A model generated the notes under the pieces. It saw nothing but the letters and a program-made list of their open reading frames with translations, had not been told where the DNA came from and did no database searches. A stretch of DNA of 64,000 nt from Myxococcales bacterium (GTDB lineage: Bacteria > Myxococcota > Myxococcia > Myxococcales > JAJYLH01). Positions 2,308-21,743 of the stretch are shown here, in pieces. A program made the translations under genes and the position numbers. The stretch's first letter is position 1; the number at the start of each line of letters is the position of its first letter. The stretch is taken from NCBI GenBank assembly GCA_021787845.1, contig JAJYLH010000003.1, positions 62,001-126,000 on the forward strand. The letters run 5' to 3'.

Positions 2308-5172
<2,865 letters not shown>

Positions 5173-5440: not shown

Positions 5441-5821
5441 ATGTCGCACCGCACCGCCCGCTCGCGCACGTTTCCGAGCGTTCTCGCCGCCTTGGCTCTC
5501 GCCTGGCCGCTCGCCGCGTCCGCGCAGCCGACCGGCAACCCGACCCAGGGAAAGACCGTCTTCGAGGCCAACTGCATCGTCTGCCACGGCGCCGACGGCA
5601 AGGGCGACGGCCCCGCGGCGGCGGCCTTGAGCCCGCACCCGGCGAACTTCACCGACCACAAGCGGATGAGCAAGGTCCCGGATTCGCTGCGGGTCAAGGT
5701 CGTCACCGGCGGGGGCGCCTCGCAGGGACTCTCGCCGCTGATGCCGAGCTTCGGGTCCACGCTGTCGGCCCAGCAGATCCGCGACGTCGTCGCCTACATC
5801 CGTCAGGCGTTCAGCCACTAG
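5441..5821 (+). CDS. Small periplasmic class I cytochrome c
   Basis: The 126-residue product has a Sec signal peptide (cleavage probably after ASA at residue 28) and one c-type haem site, Cys45-x-x-Cys48-His49, in a motif of the CIVCHGADGKGDGP kind typical of mono-haem electron carriers. Met101 in the LMPSFG motif is the likely sixth haem ligand. The C-terminal helix ends with DVVAYIRQAF, the usual closing helix of this fold. I chose the ATG at 5441, preceded by GAGGGGA, over an earlier in-frame start at 5417. The next gene, 82 bases downstream on the same strand, also carries a haem motif, so the two probably work together in electron transfer at the cell envelope. Confidence 0.9.
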   Translation: MSHRTARSRTFPSVLAALALAWPLAASAQPTGNPTQGKTVFEANCIVCHGADGKGDGPAAAALSPHPANFTDHKRMSKVPDSLRVKVVTGGGASQGLSPLMPSFGSTLSAQQIRDVVAYIRQAFSH

Positions 5822-5903
5822 CCAAACCGCTCGACCGTCACCACCGTTCGACCGCCTTTTCCCCTGAGGGCCCGCGCACGGGCGCGGGTGGGAGGTCGAA
5901 CAG

Positions 5904-7187
5904 ATGGTCGCATGTGGTGCGGGTCGGTGGTGTCGCTCTCTGGCAGCGCTCGCGGGGTTCGCTTGCGCTCTCCTTCTCCTCGAACCCGGCGCCCGGGCGG
6001 TTCCGAGCTTCGCCCGGCAGACCGGCTTCACCTGCGACGTGTGCCACACGGCGTTCCCGGAGCTGACGCCGTTCGGCCGGGCATTCAAGGCGTCGGGCTA
6101 CACCCTGACCACCGAGAAGACCATCGGCGGCAAGAGCACCGCCGGCCGCTCGACCCTGGCGCTCGTCGGCCTGCCGCCGCTCTCCGCGATGCTCCAGGCG
6201 ACCTACGTCCACACCCAGGGCGGCCAGCCGAACCAGAAGAACGACAACATCGCCCTCCCGGAGCAGCTCAGCTTCTTCCTCGCCGGCAAGATCGCGCCGG
6301 GGCTGGGCGGTTTCATCCAGGTGACCTACAGCGCCCTCGACAACAGCTTCGGCATCGACAACACCGACATCCGCTACTCGCGCACCGACGCGCTGGGCGA
6401 CAGCCCCCTCGTCTGGGGCATCACCCTCAACAACAACCCGACCCTGACCGACCTGTGGAACTCGACCCCCGCCTGGGGCGCGCCATTCGGCGACTCGGGG
6501 ATGCGGCCAGCGCCGAGCTTCGCGCCCTTCGTCTCGAGCCTGGGGCAGAACGTGGTGGGCTTGGGCGTCTACGGGTTGTGGAACAACCTGGTCTACGCCG
6601 AAGTCGACGGCTACCGCCCCTCCCCGGTAGGAGCGCTACCGGTACAGGAGACCGCTCCTGCTGGCAGCTCGACCGCGACCAACGTCGTCCAAGGGGTGGC
6701 GCCGTACTGGCGGGTCGCCCTGACTCACGACTTCGGGCCCCAATCCGTCGAAGTCGGCACCTTCGGGATGCACGGCGAAATCCTTCCCGGCGGCCCCACC
6801 CTCCTGACGCCGACGACGCGCTTCACCGACCTCGCCGTCGACGCGCAGTACCAGTACATCCTGGGCGACAACATCTTCACCGCCGACGGCTCGTTCATCC
6901 ACGAGGACGACTCGACCGGCGGCGCCGGCACCGGCCACCTGAACGCGACCACCCTGACCGCCGCCTACCTCTACAGCCGGGTCATCGGCCTGCGCCTGAC
7001 CTATCAGGACGTCGGGGGCGCCGCCGGCCAGGGAAGCCACATCGGGCTCATCGACCTGAACCTCCTGCCCTGGCTCAACACTCAGTTCACGCTGCGCTAC
7101 ACGGCGAACTTCGAGCTGGACGGCGCGAGCGGCACGCCAGCGACCAACGCCAATTCGCTGCTGGCGCTCGCCTGGATCGCGTTCTAG
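5904..7187 (+). CDS. Haem-motif outer-membrane barrel-like protein
   Basis: This 427-residue exported protein has a signal peptide (cleavage near ARA-V, residue 32) followed at once by a c-type haem motif, Cys44-Asp-Val-Cys47-His48, in a stretch reading CHTAFPELTPFGRAFK. The remaining 370 residues lack further haem motifs and show alternating polar/hydrophobic strands rich in Tyr, Thr and Asn, ending in a strand with a C-terminal Phe (LLALAWIAF), which is characteristic of outer-membrane beta-barrels. Similar haem-plus-barrel proteins are known as uncharacterised cytochrome-like families in proteobacteria. GGGAGGT precedes the ATG. With the cytochrome c at 5441 it could form a short periplasm-to-surface electron route; that role is inferred. 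The barrel call rests on strand pattern and the terminal Phe. Confidence 0.7.
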   Translation: MVACGAGRWCRSLAALAGFACALLLLEPGARAVPSFARQTGFTCDVCHTAFPELTPFGRAFKASGYTLTTEKTIGGKSTAGRSTLALVGLPPLSAMLQATYVHTQGGQPNQKNDNIALPEQLSFFLAGKIAPGLGGFIQVTYSALDNSFGIDNTDIRYSRTDALGDSPLVWGITLNNNPTLTDLWNSTPAWGAPFGDSGMRPAPSFAPFVSSLGQNVVGLGVYGLWNNLVYAEVDGYRPSPVGALPVQETAPAGSSTATNVVQGVAPYWRVALTHDFGPQSVEVGTFGMHGEILPGGPTLLTPTTRFTDLAVDAQYQYILGDNIFTADGSFIHEDDSTGGAGTGHLNATTLTAAYLYSRVIGLRLTYQDVGGAAGQGSHIGLIDLNLLPWLNTQFTLRYTANFELDGASGTPATNANSLLALAWIAF

Positions 7188-9388: not shown

Positions 9389-9584
9389 CGGGGTAGCTCC
9401 GAAACGCTCAGTGTAGTGCGCGACCGCGGCCGGTGCTCGTCGACCCCTCGGTGCCCGACGCCGCGACGAATGCGCGTGATCGACCCACCGCGTGCAGGTT
9501 GCACGTGATTGCGAGACGCGCGCTCGTCCTCCACCCTGCACGACGGGGGGCTCGCGCGTGAAGCGAGCCTTGGGGGGAGGAACG

Positions 9585-12500
9585 ATGAGGCTCGGAACAA
9601 GGTGGCGATGGGCGTCGCTGGCGACGCTCATCGGGGCGCTGGGATCTGCCTGTGACTGCGGCGGGACGCGGGTCATCGCCACCCGCAACGATGGCTCGCT
9701 CCGGGTGATCACCGCCGACGTCGTCAGTTGTGACGGCACGCGAGTCAAGCTGCAGCCGATCGTGACAGGCGGGGTGCCCCCCTACAGCTATCAGTGGGAA
9801 CCAGCCGCGCACGTCACCTCTCCCTACACGCTCGCGACCTATGCCGACGCCGACGACACGCGCCGCTACGTGCTCACGGTGACCGACGGGCAAGGCTGGA
9901 CCGCTTCTGGGGTCACTCGAGTCATCCGCCATGCCGCGCCCGTCGCGAAGCTGGCCTTCGACCAGGGAGCGCCGCTCACCTGCTCAGGGACAGCGGTCAC
10001 GCTGGACGCTTCCGCTAGCGCCTCCTCGGACGAGAGCGCGCTCGCGTCGTACACTTGGTCCTTGGGCGACGGCCAGGCGCCGCGCCCCTCCCACGAGACG
10101 ACGCAGACCCTCGTGCCGAAAGACGGCCAGGTGGTGAGCGTGACGGTCGAGGACGCCGCCGGGTGCCGGGCGACCGCGACGCAGAAGCTCCTGGTGCGCG
10201 CGCTCCCCACGCCGCGTGTCCGCTTCACCGAAGGCTCCGCCAGCGTCTGCACCGGCGACACGGTCGACCTCGACGCCTCGACCTCGACCGACGCCGACGG
10301 CAAGCCCGTCGCCAGCTACGCCTGGGACCTCGACGGCAACCCGGCGACCATCGAGAGCACGCAGGCGACGAGCGGCGCCTATGTCCCCAGCAGCGCTCCC
10401 GCCAAGCTAACGGTGACCGATTCCTTCGGCTGCCAGTCATCGCTGGTCACCGCCATCGCCGTCCGCCCGCGGCCGACCGCCCGCATCGCGCTCGCCCAGA
10501 CCAAGCCCCAGATCTGCGCGGGAGACGAGGTGATCCTCGATGGCTCCAGCTCGACCGACGCGAACGGCGCGCCGGTCGCCGCCTACGCCTGGGATCTCGA
10601 CGGCAACCCGAAGACCATCGAATCGACCGCCGCCAAGCCGCCGCCCTTCCCCGCAAGCAAGGCAGAAACGGTCACGCTCACCGTCACCGGTGCCGATGGG
10701 TGCCAAGACGCCGCACAGCTCCGGATTGCGCCGCGACCGCTGCCGCAGCTTCCGGTGGTCGTCGCCTCCGGGAAAACGGACGGCTGCGTCGGTTCGGTGG
10801 TCACCCTTTCCGCCGCCGGCGCGGTCGATGCCAACGGCAACCCGGTCGCCAGCACCTCCTGGGACCTGAACGGCGACGGCACCCCCGACGCGTCCGGCCC
10901 GACGGCGCAGGTCACTCTCTCGAAACCTTTGGTCGTGAGCGTCACCGTGACCGACCAGCAGGGTTGCAGCTCGACGGGAACGCTGCCGCTCAATCCGAGA
11001 CCGCTACCGACCATCGTCACCACCTTCGCGGCCGGCTCCGCCGCCGTCTGCGCGGGCGACCAGGTCGACCTCGACGCCTCGCGCTCGCACGATGCGGACG
11101 GCAAGCCCGTCGCGAGCTATGCCTGGGACCTCGACGGCAACCCCTCGACCGTCGAGAGCACTCAGGCGACGACCGGAAGCTTCGTCCCGACCGGCACGCC
11201 GGCGAACCTGACGGTGACCGACGCCTACGGCTGCACCGCCTCGCTCTCGACGCCCATCACGGTCCACGCGCTGCCGACCGCCGTGGTCCATTTCGACCAG
11301 GGTTCGTCCGCCGTGTGCGATGGAACCGTGGTCCAGGTGGACGGGCTCCAATCGCACGACAGCACCGGGGCACCGGTCTCGCAGTACGCTTGGAACTTCG
11401 ACCCCACCTCGGCGACGATCGACTCGACCGCCGCCACGCCTCCGCCCTTCGCCACCGCCGGCGGACGCTCCATCGAGCTGACGGTGACCGACACGAACGG
11501 CTGCGCGGCGCAGACGGTCACCCAGCTCACGAGCCGCGCGCTGCCCACGCCGCGGGTCTCGTTCGTCACCGGTTCCAGCTCGCTGTGCGCCGGCGCTACC
11601 GCCGACCTGGACGCCTCCTCCTCCACCGACGCCGACGGAAACCCCGTGACGTCCTATTCATGGGACCTCGATGGTAATCCCGCGACCGTCGAGTCCACCG
11701 CGGCGACCACGGGCAGTTTCGTCCCGACCGGCGCGCCCGCGAACCTGACCGTGACCGATTCCTACGGGTGCCAGGCGACGCTCTCCACCCCGATTTCCGT
11801 CCTGCCGGCGCCGACGCCGGTGATTCACTTCGACCAGGGGTCGTCCGCGGTCTGCGACGGAACCGTCGTCCAGGTGGACGGCCTCTCCTCGCACGACGCG
11901 ACCGGCGCGCCGGTCGTGGGATACGCCTGGGACTTCGGGACCGACCCGACCGCGATCGACTCCACCGCCGCCTCGCCTCCGCCCTTCGGCACGGCCGGCG
12001 GGCGCGAGATTCGGCTCACGGTCTTCGACACGAACGGCTGCTCCGGGAAGACCACCACCCGCCTCACGAGCCGCGCCCTGCCGACGCCGGTGATCACAGT
12101 GGTCCAAGGCAAGCCGGATGCGTGCCTGGGAGAGCCGGTCCAGCTTAGCGGCAGCGCTTCCACCGACGCGGACGGGAATCCGGTTGCCTCCTGGACCTGG
12201 TCCTACGCCGAGGCGGCGGGCGGCACCTTCTCCGGCGCGACCACCCCCGCGTTCACGCCTTCGGGAAATGAATCGGTGCTGCTGGCCGTGACCGACAGCT
12301 TTGGCTGCGTCGCCAGCACCTCGCAAGCGCTCTCGCCCCGCGCGCTGCCGATTCCGAAGCTGTCCTTCGTCACCGGCACGCCCGAGATGTGCGCAGGAGC
12401 GAGCGTGCAGCTCTCCGCCGCGGGATCCACCGACGCGGCCGGCAATCCGGTGGCGTCGGTCGCCTGGGATCTCGACGGAAACGGAACCACCGACGCCGCC

Positions 12501-15500
12501 ACGGTCCAGACGGCGCCGTTCGTGCCCACTCAATCCGCGACCGCGCATCTGACGGTCACCGACAGCACCGGCTGCTCGGCAGGGCTCTCGCAGCCCTTGA
12601 CGGTCGACGCCCCGCCGACCGCGCGCATCGCCTTCGACAAGGGGGGACCGAACGTCTGCGACGGGGCGACCGCCGCGCTGGACGGAAGTAGCTCCGCTGA
12701 CGCCACCGGCGCGCCAGTGACCTCCTATGATTGGACACTCGACGAGAACGGCGCCCAGGCGAGCTCGACCCTCGCCCAGCCGCCCTCGTTTTCCGCATCG
12801 GGCGCGAGCTTGGCCGCGTTGACCGTCACCGACAGCCACGGGTGCACCGACACCACCACCGTCGATATCGCCGGGCGCGCCTTGCCCACCGCCCGGATCG
12901 CGGTCACGCAGCCGCACACCGCCATCTGCACAGGTGATGCGGTCTCGCTCTCCGGGACCGGATCCGTCGACGCCGACGGAAACCCGGTCACCGGCTACGC
13001 CTGGGACCTCGACGGCAATCCCTCGACCATCGAATCGACGTCTCCCTCACCGGCACCGCTCACGATCACCGGCGGCCGTACCGTAACCCTGCACGTCACC
13101 GACCGCGCGGGCTGCGTCGGCACGGCTTCTTCCACGCTCGACCCCCGCGCGCTGCCGACGCCGAACATCGCGTTCGCGAGCGGTCGCGCCGACGTCTGCG
13201 CGGGCGGGTCGGTCTCGCTGACCTCCGCTGGCTCCACCGACGCCGACGGAAACCCGGTCGCGCAGGTGGCGTGGGACTACGACTCCAACGGAACCGTCGA
13301 CAGCACCTCGGTCCAGACGCCACCCTTCATCCCCGCGGGACCGGAGACGACCACCTTGACGGTGACGGACTCCGACGGCTGCAGCGCCTCCGCCACCCAG
13401 CCGACTGACCCGCGGGGACTGCCGACCGCGGCGATCCGATTCGTTTCCGGCGGCCCGCAGCTCTGCCAGGGCGAGAGCTTCAGCCTCGATGGCTCCGGTT
13501 CGCACGACATCGACGGCAACCCGGTCAGCGCCTACGCCTGGGATCTCACCGGCAACGGCACCACCGACCAGACCACCGCGCAAACGACGCTTTTCACGCC
13601 TACCAACAGCGGCACCGTCTCCCTCACCGTCACCGACGCGGAAGGCTGCGTCGGCCAAGCGAGCCAAGCGGTCGCGGTCCGGCCCCTCCCCAACGCGCGG
13701 ATCAGCTTCGTCCAGGGCTCGGACCTCGTGTGCCCGGGAAGTACGGTTCAGCTCAGCGGGACCGGTTCCGTGGACACGAACGGCAACGCCGTCACCGCCT
13801 ACGCCTGGGATCTCGATGGGAACCCGTCGACCATCGAGTCGTTCGCCCAGACGCCGCCCGCCTTCAGCCTTTCCGCCGCTCGCACCGTGCGCCTGACCGT
13901 GAGCGACGCGCAGGGCTGCCGGGGAACGGCATCGCAAGCGCTCGGCGTACGCGCACTGCCGGCGGTCAGCGCGGGACCAGACGTGGCGGTGTGCGCCGGG
14001 GACGGCGTCCACATCGGCGGCCCCGCGCTCAGTGGCGTCGCCTACGCCTGGTCCCCGACCACCGGCCTGGACGACCCGAATTCCAGCGCTCCCCTCGCCA
14101 CGCCCGCCGCGACAACAACATATTCCGTCACTGGCATTGACTCTTTCGGCTGCGAGGCGACCAGCAGCGCCGTCGTGACGGTGAACCCCAACCCCATCGC
14201 CAACGCGGGACCAGACCGTCAGGTGGCCCTCGGCGGAAGCGTCTCCCTCCTCGGCAGCGCTAGCGGTGGAACGGGGCCCTACAGCTATGCGTGGACGCCG
14301 GCGCAGACGGTGGACAGCCCCTCGACGCCGGACCCGCGCGCGTCGCCCGCGACCGACACCAGCTACCAGCTCGCGGTGACCGACGCGAACCAGTGCGTCG
14401 GGACCGACTCGACCCAGGTGACGGTGCTGCCCGCGATGGAGGTCGCCGTCGGTCCCGATCGGCTGTTGTGCCTCAACTCGGGGAAAGCGCTGCCGCTGAC
14501 CGGGCAAGTGACGAGCGGGGTCCCGCCGTTCACCTACCAGTGGACGAGCTCCCCCGCCTGCGCTGGCTGTATCGTCTCGCCGAACGCGCTGTCGACCACG
14601 GTGAAGCCCGCACAGGACACGACCTTCACCCTCACGGTCACCGACGCAAACGGCACCAGCGCCTCCGGGAGCATGAACGTCCACGTGGTCCAGCAGATCG
14701 CGGTCGACGCGGGACCGGACCGGACGCTCGCCCGCGGCGCGACCACCCAGCTCGGCGCGGCAGGCCAGGCAGGGCTCAGCTACTCCTGGACCTGCTCCAC
14801 CTCGAGCTGCGCCTTGTCGAACGACAGCTCTCCGGACCCGATAGCGCAGCCGGAGGGCACGACCGCTTACACCGTCACCGCGACCGACGGCGCAACCTGC
14901 ACGGCGACCGATTCGGTCCTGGTGTCGATGGATCCGCGCATCATCGCCACGGTCCCCACCGAGGGCTACAACCCGTGGGACCGCAGCTCGCCCTTGTGGG
15001 TCATCTTCGACGCCGACCTCGACCCGGCCTCGATTCCGGGGAACGTGACGCTCCTCGACCCGTCCGACGGCTCGACCATCTTCATCACCACGAGCTACGA
15101 CGCGCCCACCCGGATGCTGATGGTGCAGCCGCTGGAGAAGTGCGCGACCTCCAGTTGCACCGGCGACCATTCCTACTGGAACAACCGGCCCTATCTCCTG
15201 GTGCTCAAGGGAGGTCCCGGAGGGATACGCACCGCGGGGCCGTACAGCGTGCCTCTCTACAACGACTTCACCCTCGAGTTCACCGCCTCCTCGGTGGGCG
15301 ACGGCGTCGCGCCGCAGATCGCCTACCGGCAGCCCTCCTGGGGTGCGTCTGGCGTCGACACCACCACGCACGTGGTGATGACCTTCGACGAGCCGGCCGA
15401 CCCACGGTCGGTGAATGTGTCGACCGTCTGGATCGCCGGGCACCCGGGCACGGTCACCTACGACCCTCGCACCTGGACGGCGACGCTGGAGCTCTCCGCG

Positions 15501-16352
15501 CCACTCGCGCCGAACACCGCCTACGTGGTGAACGTCGTCGGGGTCAAGGACGGCCCGGGGAACCCCACCAACACGAGCTGGACCTTCACCACCGGCGCCG
15601 GACCGGACACCACGCCACCCTCGGTCGTCTCCTCGACGCCCACCGACGGCGCGACCGGCATCGACGTCGCGAGCAGCCTGACCGTCACCTTCAGCGAGCC
15701 CATCGAGACCGCTACCCTGGGGCATCTCAAGGTGCTGGACGTGGCAGCCGGTATCGCCATCGGCGGAATCACGACCTACGACGAGGCGACCCGGACGGCG
15801 ACCTTCGAGCCGACGAGCTTCCTCGAGCCGAGCCACCCGTATGCGCTCGAGCTCCAGGGCCTCACCGATCAGGCGGGCAATCCGTTGCCGGAGTACTCGG
15901 CGACCTTTACCACCGCGAGCGTCCTCCTGGCGGAGCGGTTCGAAGCGCCGCCGACCGGATGGACCCTCGACTCGCCCTGGGGGCTCGACTTCGACGCCGC
16001 CCGCGCGGGCGAATTCGGGCTCTCCGACAGCCCCGGCGCCGACTACGGAAACTCGATTTCGGTCTCGGCGGCGACGCCCGAGCTCGACGTCAGTGGCCGC
16101 AGCCAGGTGAGCATCAGCCTCTGGACGCGGCGGACCCTGCAGACCGACAACGACCAAGCGCTGATCGAGACGTCGCCCGATGGCACGAGCTGGACGGCAG
16201 CGCAGACGCTGAGCGGACCGACTGGATGGCGGCCGCTCACGGTGACCGTGCCCACCAACGGTCGCCCGAACCTCTGGGTTCGCCTCCGCTTGACCAGCGA
16301 CGCCAGCGGGAACCTGGACGGGTGGTTCGTCGACGACTTCGTCGTCCGATGA
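9585..16352 (+). CDS. Giant PKD-repeat surface lipoprotein, 2255 residues
   Basis: The ATG at 9585 follows a strong GGGGGGAGG. A signal peptide with a cysteine after LGSA suggests lipid anchoring. A first PKD-like domain is followed by 15 tandem repeats of about 89 residues (about residues 116-1455), each with a conserved Cys in VCxG, a core like DADGNPVxxYAWDLDGNP, and a second Cys in LTVTDSxGC, so each repeat probably carries its own disulfide. Four shorter, diverged PKD units follow (about 1456-1780), then about three SbsA/Big_5 Ig-like domains (for example STPTDGATGIDVASSLTVTF, near 2010), and a C-terminal jelly-roll domain resembling choice-of-anchor/MAM modules (about 2115-2255). No catalytic domain is visible. 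The likely role is adhesion or a surface fibre; the partner is unknown. Confidence 0.88.
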   Translation: MRLGTRWRWASLATLIGALGSACDCGGTRVIATRNDGSLRVITADVVSCDGTRVKLQPIVTGGVPPYSYQWEPAAHVTSPYTLATYADADDTRRYVLTVTDGQGWTASGVTRVIRHAAPVAKLAFDQGAPLTCSGTAVTLDASASASSDESALASYTWSLGDGQAPRPSHETTQTLVPKDGQVVSVTVEDAAGCRATATQKLLVRALPTPRVRFTEGSASVCTGDTVDLDASTSTDADGKPVASYAWDLDGNPATIESTQATSGAYVPSSAPAKLTVTDSFGCQSSLVTAIAVRPRPTARIALAQTKPQICAGDEVILDGSSSTDANGAPVAAYAWDLDGNPKTIESTAAKPPPFPASKAETVTLTVTGADGCQDAAQLRIAPRPLPQLPVVVASGKTDGCVGSVVTLSAAGAVDANGNPVASTSWDLNGDGTPDASGPTAQVTLSKPLVVSVTVTDQQGCSSTGTLPLNPRPLPTIVTTFAAGSAAVCAGDQVDLDASRSHDADGKPVASYAWDLDGNPSTVESTQATTGSFVPTGTPANLTVTDAYGCTASLSTPITVHALPTAVVHFDQGSSAVCDGTVVQVDGLQSHDSTGAPVSQYAWNFDPTSATIDSTAATPPPFATAGGRSIELTVTDTNGCAAQTVTQLTSRALPTPRVSFVTGSSSLCAGATADLDASSSTDADGNPVTSYSWDLDGNPATVESTAATTGSFVPTGAPANLTVTDSYGCQATLSTPISVLPAPTPVIHFDQGSSAVCDGTVVQVDGLSSHDATGAPVVGYAWDFGTDPTAIDSTAASPPPFGTAGGREIRLTVFDTNGCSGKTTTRLTSRALPTPVITVVQGKPDACLGEPVQLSGSASTDADGNPVASWTWSYAEAAGGTFSGATTPAFTPSGNESVLLAVTDSFGCVASTSQALSPRALPIPKLSFVTGTPEMCAGASVQLSAAGSTDAAGNPVASVAWDLDGNGTTDAATVQTAPFVPTQSATAHLTVTDSTGCSAGLSQPLTVDAPPTARIAFDKGGPNVCDGATAALDGSSSADATGAPVTSYDWTLDENGAQASSTLAQPPSFSASGASLAALTVTDSHGCTDTTTVDIAGRALPTARIAVTQPHTAICTGDAVSLSGTGSVDADGNPVTGYAWDLDGNPSTIESTSPSPAPLTITGGRTVTLHVTDRAGCVGTASSTLDPRALPTPNIAFASGRADVCAGGSVSLTSAGSTDADGNPVAQVAWDYDSNGTVDSTSVQTPPFIPAGPETTTLTVTDSDGCSASATQPTDPRGLPTAAIRFVSGGPQLCQGESFSLDGSGSHDIDGNPVSAYAWDLTGNGTTDQTTAQTTLFTPTNSGTVSLTVTDAEGCVGQASQAVAVRPLPNARISFVQGSDLVCPGSTVQLSGTGSVDTNGNAVTAYAWDLDGNPSTIESFAQTPPAFSLSAARTVRLTVSDAQGCRGTASQALGVRALPAVSAGPDVAVCAGDGVHIGGPALSGVAYAWSPTTGLDDPNSSAPLATPAATTTYSVTGIDSFGCEATSSAVVTVNPNPIANAGPDRQVALGGSVSLLGSASGGTGPYSYAWTPAQTVDSPSTPDPRASPATDTSYQLAVTDANQCVGTDSTQVTVLPAMEVAVGPDRLLCLNSGKALPLTGQVTSGVPPFTYQWTSSPACAGCIVSPNALSTTVKPAQDTTFTLTVTDANGTSASGSMNVHVVQQIAVDAGPDRTLARGATTQLGAAGQAGLSYSWTCSTSSCALSNDSSPDPIAQPEGTTAYTVTATDGATCTATDSVLVSMDPRIIATVPTEGYNPWDRSSPLWVIFDADLDPASIPGNVTLLDPSDGSTIFITTSYDAPTRMLMVQPLEKCATSSCTGDHSYWNNRPYLLVLKGGPGGIRTAGPYSVPLYNDFTLEFTASSVGDGVAPQIAYRQPSWGASGVDTTTHVVMTFDEPADPRSVNVSTVWIAGHPGTVTYDPRTWTATLELSAPLAPNTAYVVNVVGVKDGPGNPTNTSWTFTTGAGPDTTPPSVVSSTPTDGATGIDVASSLTVTFSEPIETATLGHLKVLDVAAGIAIGGITTYDEATRTATFEPTSFLEPSHPYALELQGLTDQAGNPLPEYSATFTTASVLLAERFEAPPTGWTLDSPWGLDFDAARAGEFGLSDSPGADYGNSISVSAATPELDVSGRSQVSISLWTRRTLQTDNDQALIETSPDGTSWTAAQTLSGPTGWRPLTVTVPTNGRPNLWVRLRLTSDASGNLDGWFVDDFVVR
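9930..13950 (+). repeat. Fifteen tandem coding repeats of about 268 bp
   Basis: Within the giant lipoprotein gene about 15 units of 89-90 codons follow one another, each opening with a codon series for (R/H)ALPTP and containing near-identical DNA for AYAWDLDGNP. Neighbouring and alternate units (for example those near 11280 and 11820, both reading HFDQGSSAVCDGTVVQVDG) are closer to each other than to the rest, which indicates block duplication. Confidence 0.85.
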
Positions 16353-19964: not shown

Positions 19965-21743
19965 CTAGAGCTGCGCGAGCAGGAGCTGCCGCTGGAGCTC
20001 CAACGCCTTCGGCAGGCGCGGCTGCAAGGTCTGCAGGAAGGCACCAGCGCTCTCGAGCTCCGTCATCCATTCGGCTCGGCGGACCGCCACGGCCTCTTCG
20101 ACCCGCTCGACCGGAACGTCGAGCCCGACAAGGTCCAGGTCCGAGGTGCCAGGGACGTACCCGAGCGCGGTTTCGCGAGCGTTCGCGTTCCCCTTGGCGC
20201 GTTCGACCATCCACTGGAGCACCCGCATGTTCTCGCCGTAGCCGGGCCAGAGGAACCTCCCGGCGGAGTCCTTTCGAAACCAGTTGACGAGGAAGATTCT
20301 CGGCGGCTGGGTGATCTTCTGCTGCATCTCGAGCCAATGACCGAAGTAGTCGCCCATGTGGTAGCCGCAGAAGGGGAGCATCGCCATCGGGTCGCGGCGG
20401 ATGACCCCGACCTTCCCGGTGGCAGCGGCAGTGGTCTCGCTCCCCAGCGTCGCTCCCAGGTACACCCCGTGCGTCCAGTTGAAGCTCTCGAGCACCAGCG
20501 GTACCGTCGAGCCGCGGCGCCCCCCGAAGACGACAGCGCTGATGGGGACCCCCGAAGGGTCGTTGACCCGCGGCGAGAGGGACGGATTGTTGGTCATCGG
20601 GGCGGTGAAGCGGGCATTCGGGTGCGCTGCTTTGTCGCCCGACGCGGGCGTCCACGGCTGGCCCCGCCAGTCGATGAGGTGGGCGGGAGCGGTGGCGGTC
20701 TTCTCCTCCCACCAGACGTCCCCGTCGGGCGTCCTCGCCACGTTGGTGTAGAGCGTGCTGTGGGCAATCGACTTCATCGCGTTGGGGTTCGAGCGGGTGC
20801 TGGTGCCCGGCGCGACACCGAAATAGCCGTTCTCGGGGTTGACCGCCCACAGCCGCCCGTCGTCGCCCACGCGCATCCAGGCGATATCGTCGCCGACCGT
20901 CCAGATCTTCCAGCCGGCAAATCGCGGCGGAGGAATGAGCATGGCGAAGTTCGTTTTCCCGCACGACGATGGGAAGGCGGCGGCGACGTAGGTGGTCTCG
21001 CCCGCGGGGCTCTGGGCGCCGAGAATCAGCATGTGCTCCGCGAGCCAGCCTTCCCGTCGCGCGAGGTAGCTTCCAATCCGGAGCGCGAGGCACTTCTTGC
21101 CGAGCAGGACGTTGCCGCCATAGTTGGACCCGACGGACCAGACGGTGTCGTCCTGCGGGAAGTGGCAGATGAACCGCCGCTCCGGGGAGAGGTCGAGCAT
21201 CCCGTGGACGCCCCGGTTGAACGCGTCGCTCGTCTCGCCGAGCTGGTCCAGGGCGATGCGGCCCATGCGGGTCATGATCCGCATGTTGAGGACCACGTAG
21301 AGGCTGTCGGTCAGCTCGATGCCGACCTTGGCGAGAGGGCTGCCGGCCGGCCCCATCAGGTACGGCACGACGTACAGGGTCCGCCCCCGCATCGAGCCAT
21401 CCAGGAGCGCTCCCAATTTCCGATATGCCTCCTGGGGAGCCATCCAGTGGTTGGTGGGCCCGGCCTCCTCGGCGGTGGGCGTGCAGATGAAGGTCAGGTG
21501 CTCCACCCGCGCGACATCGCTCGGATCCGAGCGGGCGAGATAGCAGCCGGGAAGCTTTCCCGGATCGAGCGGCTCGAGGAGCTTCCGCGCCACCGCCTCC
21601 TCGAGAAACCGCGTGTTCTCCGCCTCCGAACCGTCGCACCAGACAATCCGATCGGGCTTCGTCAGGCGCGCGGTCTCCTCGACCCAGCGCAGGACGCGCG
21701 GGTTGCCGGTCAGCGGTTGCTCGCGATTCGAGGCGGAGGGCAT
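19965..21743 (-). CDS. pckG: Phosphoenolpyruvate carboxykinase (GTP)
   Basis: This 592-residue enzyme converts oxaloacetate and GTP to phosphoenolpyruvate, CO2 and GDP, the first committed step of gluconeogenesis. It is the GTP-dependent class: the kinase-1 loop reads FPSSCGKTNFAM with the hyper-reactive cysteine at about residue 261, followed by the metal-binding VGDDIAW motif, and FGGRRGST matches the substrate loop. Length and ending (ELQRQLLLAQL) are normal for the family. GGAG lies seven bases before the ATG at 21743. It is transcribed alone on the minus strand; paired palindromes at 21917-21951 in its upstream region may take part in control. Confidence 0.97.
   Translation of the reverse strand: MPSASNREQPLTGNPRVLRWVEETARLTKPDRIVWCDGSEAENTRFLEEAVARKLLEPLDPGKLPGCYLARSDPSDVARVEHLTFICTPTAEEAGPTNHWMAPQEAYRKLGALLDGSMRGRTLYVVPYLMGPAGSPLAKVGIELTDSLYVVLNMRIMTRMGRIALDQLGETSDAFNRGVHGMLDLSPERRFICHFPQDDTVWSVGSNYGGNVLLGKKCLALRIGSYLARREGWLAEHMLILGAQSPAGETTYVAAAFPSSCGKTNFAMLIPPPRFAGWKIWTVGDDIAWMRVGDDGRLWAVNPENGYFGVAPGTSTRSNPNAMKSIAHSTLYTNVARTPDGDVWWEEKTATAPAHLIDWRGQPWTPASGDKAAHPNARFTAPMTNNPSLSPRVNDPSGVPISAVVFGGRRGSTVPLVLESFNWTHGVYLGATLGSETTAAATGKVGVIRRDPMAMLPFCGYHMGDYFGHWLEMQQKITQPPRIFLVNWFRKDSAGRFLWPGYGENMRVLQWMVERAKGNANARETALGYVPGTSDLDLVGLDVPVERVEEAVAVRRAEWMTELESAGAFLQTLQPRLPKALELQRQLLLAQL

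Follow-up and report, generated by a model that had tools for sequence, protein, structure and literature searches.

The protein encoded at positions 5904–7187 of the DNA analysed here, a stretch of 64,000 nucleotides from a Myxococcales bacterium (GCA_021787845.1, contig JAJYLH010000003.1; referred to below as the window), is almost certainly a member of the Cyc2 family. Together with the small c-type cytochrome encoded upstream, it probably forms an electron-uptake pair of the outer membrane, consisting of Cyc2 and a periplasmic acceptor cytochrome, with Fe(II) as the likeliest donor. The layout of the haem-porin is already known from Cyc2, and what is added by the window is a member from Myxococcota that is accompanied by an upstream mono-haem partner. 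The features of the pair are listed in Table 1.

Table 1. Coordinates of the cytochrome and haem-porin genes and of the segments of the haem-porin, numbered from the first nucleotide of the window.
Feature	Position	Strand	Description
Partner cytochrome gene	5441..5821	+	126 aa, exported mono-haem class I cytochrome c, CIVCH
cyc2-like gene	5904..7187	+	427 aa, fused mono-haem cytochrome-porin with the published Cyc2 signature (PMC8406198)
Signal-peptide region	5904..5999	+	residues 1–32, ARA then V33; assigned by eye and from model helix 8–25
Haem segment VPSFARQTGFTCDVCHTAFPELTPFGRAFKASGYT	6000..6104	+	residues 33–67: Cyc2 motif, CXXCH, PXL
16-stranded β-barrel	6180..7181	+	residues 93–426, then terminal Phe; AlphaFold2 model and Foldseek porin matches

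The two genes lie on the same strand, with 82 bases between the stop of the first and the start of the second, and are flanked by secA (2308–5172) on one side and by an adenosine deaminase gene on the opposite strand on the other; for these reasons they look like a two-gene unit. Scans for promoters and terminators found none. The open reading frames agree with a sequence-only reading of this DNA, in which a mono-haem cytochrome c was placed just ahead of an exported protein carrying CDVCH immediately after its signal peptide and ending in Phe. In the genome to which the window belongs, the pair stands alone, with no respiratory gene set adjoining it. Elsewhere in the window, the plus strand encodes a further c-type cytochrome (PF13442; 19204–19848), which has a hydrophobic segment at its N terminus and lies next to a GTP-type PEP carboxykinase (19965–21743, minus strand). 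A very long reading frame of 2286 residues, in which PKD-like domains recur and whose product is probably located at the cell surface, occupies 9492–16352 (plus strand).

The partner cytochrome matches the Pfam model Cytochrom_C (PF00034) with 55.2 bits against a cut-off of 21.3 (E 1.9e-14), which makes it a class I cytochrome c, and it also matches Cytochrome_CBB3. A candidate axial Met is found within SPLMPSF.

The published signature of Cyc2, given in a paper on the Mariprofundus protein (PMC8406198), comprises AXPXFAR[Q/K][T/Y], a single CXXCH, and PXL, in a protein of at least 365 residues that is predicted to form a 16-stranded porin. The haem-porin of the window follows it letter for letter (AVPSFARQT..CDVCH..PEL), with AVPSFARQT at residues 32–40, the only CxxCH of the protein at residues 44–48 (Cys44, Cys47, and His48), and PEL at residues 52–54, four residues after the haem site; its length is above the minimum, and its N terminus resembles a signal peptide. 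Cyc2 proteins have been described as a family of fused cytochrome-porins (PMC8406198, PMC7029218), represented by 1,593 sequences in a published tree and divided into three clusters, in each of which Fe(II) oxidation has been reported for one protein (A. ferrooxidans Cyc2, Leptospirillum Cyt572, and Mariprofundus Cyc2PV-1); the divergent homologues are treated by the source paper as functionally uncertain. The union of an N-terminal haem and a barrel in a single polypeptide, as proposed by the sequence-only reading, thus agrees with the predicted fold, the conservation of the motif, and the gene neighbourhood, whereas its description as a much less described arrangement does not hold.

The AlphaFold2 model of the haem-porin, calculated from an alignment of 56 homologues taken from the window and from genome loci, with the plasmid rows left out, has a mean pLDDT of 85.5 and a pTM of 0.82. 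It starts with the signal helix (residues 8–25), which is followed by three short helices around the haem site and then by sixteen long strands, running from residues 93–104 to 418–426 and stopping just before the terminal Phe. The best matches found by Foldseek among solved structures are the 16-stranded general porins, with OmpU first (E 1.3e-8), followed by OmpT and then by OmpF and Omp32 (E about 1e-6 to 1e-7), and with TM-scores on the query of about 0.45–0.5. The prediction is therefore a confident porin barrel, as had been surmised from the strand-like sequence, and the protein is presumably located in the outer membrane. No convincing match was found for it in Pfam, in NCBIfam, or in a sequence search of solved structures. 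The large haem-porin family (alignment A2) is covered by no Pfam or NCBIfam model, and its members are accordingly named "cytochrome C" or "hypothetical protein" in the records.

Relatives were sought in one genome per species across 84,980 prokaryote species with the patterns A[VLI]P..F..QTG and D.WN..PAW, and at least 579 places were found to encode them. The best 80 of these at least 579 come from Pseudomonadota, Bacteroidota, Gemmatimonadota, Acidobacteriota, Chlorobiota, and others. Full-length homologues are mostly 31–52% identical to the window protein, and within the phylum of the window a full-length relative is present in only 4 of 195 genomes. Plasmid records with relatives come from Caballeronia, Paraburkholderia, Polymorphobacter, Acidithiobacillus, Acidiphilium, Methylocystis, and Ideonella. 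A contig of Gemmatimonadota carries Cyc2-like genes in tandem (L032:282-1619), the second frame lying about 630 bases downstream. In the tree, the window protein groups with those of loci L003 and L004, on a long branch and at only 91% SH-aLRT.

All 84 homologues examined (L004 and L029, both included in this number, are the same gene) contain CxxCH exactly once, although neither search pattern required it. Of the outcomes by which the sequence-only reading would have been refuted, namely a predicted structure other than a barrel, or homologues without CxxCH or without a conserved neighbour, none was observed. In the alignment of 56 sequences, CxxCH falls within the most conserved block of the protein, where Cys44, Cys47, and His48 are invariant, as are P52 and L54. 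A chance occurrence of CxxCH in an ordinary porin could draw on the lack of a Pfam or NCBIfam haem model match for the protein, but it is refuted by this conservation and has a negligible probability. The invariant residues of the barrel include the acidic and aromatic D152, D183, D309, D313, Y237, and Y268, while Met96 is kept in 53 of the 56 sequences; these residues make it conceivable that the pore contains a cation site or that the haem has a Met ligand.

A second Cyc2-like protein, with ALPSFARKY..CETCH, is encoded in the same genome as the window (L002, 325–1728, minus strand; G000 contig C40). It resembles the window protein in its haem segment and in the first part of its barrel (profile match 99.5%, E 2.4e-23), but has FARKY in place of FARQT, and its barrel cannot be aligned with that of the window protein. 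Its fold is predicted with moderate confidence (pLDDT 67, below 40 in the haem region) and was not used as evidence. The gene adjoins a haem A synthase-like frame and lies a few kb from a cluster resembling alternative complex III (ACIII), as well as from a sensor kinase. The FARKY type is common in the order to which the window belongs.

A c-type cytochrome frame on the same strand adjoins 44 of the 72 relatives with enough flanking DNA, compared with 18 of 312 control windows located further away (about 6%). This plain count of adjacency replaced a stricter filter, based on hydrophobicity and Met-ligand rules, that accepted 8 of 70 loci and missed real cytochromes. The adjoining cytochromes occur in three arrangements. 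A mono-haem cytochrome lies upstream in the window, in L003 (55% identical to that of the window), and in L004 (62%), with weaker relatives upstream in L030 (37%) and L077 (33%). A dihaem cytochrome lies downstream in 21 Pseudomonadota; the best solved match of the one in L064 is 1h1o, "cytochrome c-552" (E 2.6e-37), which we take to be the c4 cytochrome Cyc1 of A. ferrooxidans. In the rus arrangement of that organism, cyc2 and cyc1 are adjacent. The third arrangement, seen in 17 loci that are almost all from Bacteroidota, has another type of mono-haem cytochrome downstream. The six loci counted as upstream include L087, where the frame is probably spurious, and as L087 has a dihaem gene downstream, the total of 44 stands. 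No close cytochrome was found at L022, the fourth Myxococcota relative, or at the Gemmatimonadota relatives. With three arrangements among the relatives, the presence of a cytochrome next door is conserved, but the type of cytochrome is not.

In two Bacteroidota, genes for a multihaem protein and for a subunit of molybdopterin type come after those of the haem-porin and a mono-haem cytochrome (L042:6322-11335 and L058:6322-8988); the set continues in L042 with iron-sulphur and NrfD-type membrane subunits, while the contig of L058 is cut off. These subunits resemble those of the menaquinone reductase QrcA-D (Qrc/ACIII-like), below the curated cut-offs. Since such a set adjoins the haem-porin and the cytochrome in both loci, a path from an outside donor through the haem-porin and cytochrome c to quinone (menaquinone) is plausible there. 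No account of such a cluster turned up in a literature search for Cyc2 with Qrc; that Cyc2 is connected with ACIII in iron oxidisers is an earlier proposal (PMC4643136). The genome of the window encodes CcmH, for haem attachment, and has four COX1-family matches, as well as an ACIII-like cluster, in which the ActB-like protein matches Alternative Complex III subunit B with E 8.7e-91. A family search of this genome did not find RuBisCO, which makes autotrophic iron oxidation via the Calvin cycle unlikely.

The following course, including which way the electrons flow, which donor supplies them, and where they go after the partner cytochrome, is one that we infer. The haem-porin would be exported by Sec, and haem c would then be attached in the periplasm at Cys44, Cys47, and His48, and, by analogy with the Cyc2 literature, the haem segment would lie where the 16-stranded barrel opens into the periplasm. 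A small donor in solution, most likely Fe(II), would enter the barrel from outside and reduce the haem. The haem would hand the electron on to the class I cytochrome c with its single haem, which may deliver it to terminal oxidases and, in the reverse direction, through alternative complex III to quinone. The outer-membrane electron conduit proposed by the sequence-only reading is thus favoured by the layout, the predicted fold, and the conservation of both the motif and the neighbourhood, while its role in this particular organism is one that we infer.

The natural donor is probably Fe(II), and our confidence is limited by the functional uncertainty of the divergent Cyc2 homologues and by the proposal of Mn(II) for others. 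The same protein could serve the same inward path with another donor, such as Mn(II), a reduced organic compound, or some other small reductant in solution. In Candidatus Manganitrophaceae, Cyc2 has been suggested to take part with PCC_1 in oxidising Mn(II) (PMC9040806), the upstream-cytochrome order of the window recurs in Melioribacter MnB_16 (L030), whose record name suggests a manganese culture, and many of the lineages with homologues are not known to oxidise iron. Fe(II) is nevertheless oxidised by each of the three Cyc2 proteins that have been characterised biochemically, and we consider a donor other than Fe(II) rather unlikely.

Two further explanations abandon the inward path or the energy metabolism itself, and both are improbable. 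The pair might move electrons from the periplasm to an external acceptor, for example Fe(III) chelates or humics, given that porin-cytochrome conduits such as MtoA/MtrA are believed to work in both directions; nevertheless, a single haem at the periplasmic mouth would leave the membrane unspanned, the published work on Cyc2 concerns oxidation, and the Cyc1-like partners in Pseudomonadota, as well as the Qrc-like set in two Bacteroidota, point inward. Slightly less probable still is a haem-plugged porin acting in sensing or peroxide handling, next to which the cytochrome c would be incidental. That about 40% of the homologues have no adjacent cytochrome, and that secA and adenosine deaminase beside the pair are unrelated to respiration, would fit such a role, but a cytochrome lies adjacent roughly ten times as often as in the controls, this adjacency recurs with three separate types of cytochrome, and in two relatives the haem-porin and cytochrome lead into a set of respiratory genes.

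Cyc2 serves as a marker gene for iron oxidation, and its clear occurrence in a genome that is probably from Myxococcota, together with a partner specific to the lineage, widens the range of possible metal-oxidising bacteria. The pair also offers a concrete two-protein system for the unsettled function of the divergent Cyc2 homologues. We can speculate, quite tentatively, that it represents a divergent Myxococcota subgroup of Cyc2 with its own upstream mono-haem cytochrome, which would supply a RuBisCO-less and probably organotrophic bacterium with additional electrons drawn from a metal in solution, possibly one other than iron, and that in different phyla the fused haem-porin may have acquired different periplasmic cytochromes on at least three occasions.

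Comparison with the Cyc2 family reveals a common plan, in which a signal peptide is followed by a single N-terminal CXXCH, set between AXPXFAR[Q/K][T/Y] and PXL, and by a predicted 16-stranded porin in a protein of more than 365 residues. Unlike the known members, the window protein comes from a probable Myxococcota genome that lacks RuBisCO in our search, and its activity towards Fe(II) is a probable one. The relatives in Pseudomonadota adjoin a Cyc1-like dihaem cytochrome, whereas the partner in the window is a mono-haem class I protein encoded upstream. Cyc1/cytochrome c4 is likewise a small exported c-type cytochrome, encoded beside cyc2 and with the role of an expected acceptor, but it has two haems, while the partner described here has a single CxxCH in 126 residues and no c4 structure among its structure matches. 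The MtrAB, MtoAB, and PioAB conduits also combine a haem protein with a barrel to move electrons across the outer membrane. With one haem per protein and 16 strands, the pair is not a porin-cytochrome complex of the MtrAB/MtoAB type: in those conduits a separate decahaem protein is placed in a 26-stranded barrel, whereas in the window protein one haem is fused to a barrel of 16 strands.
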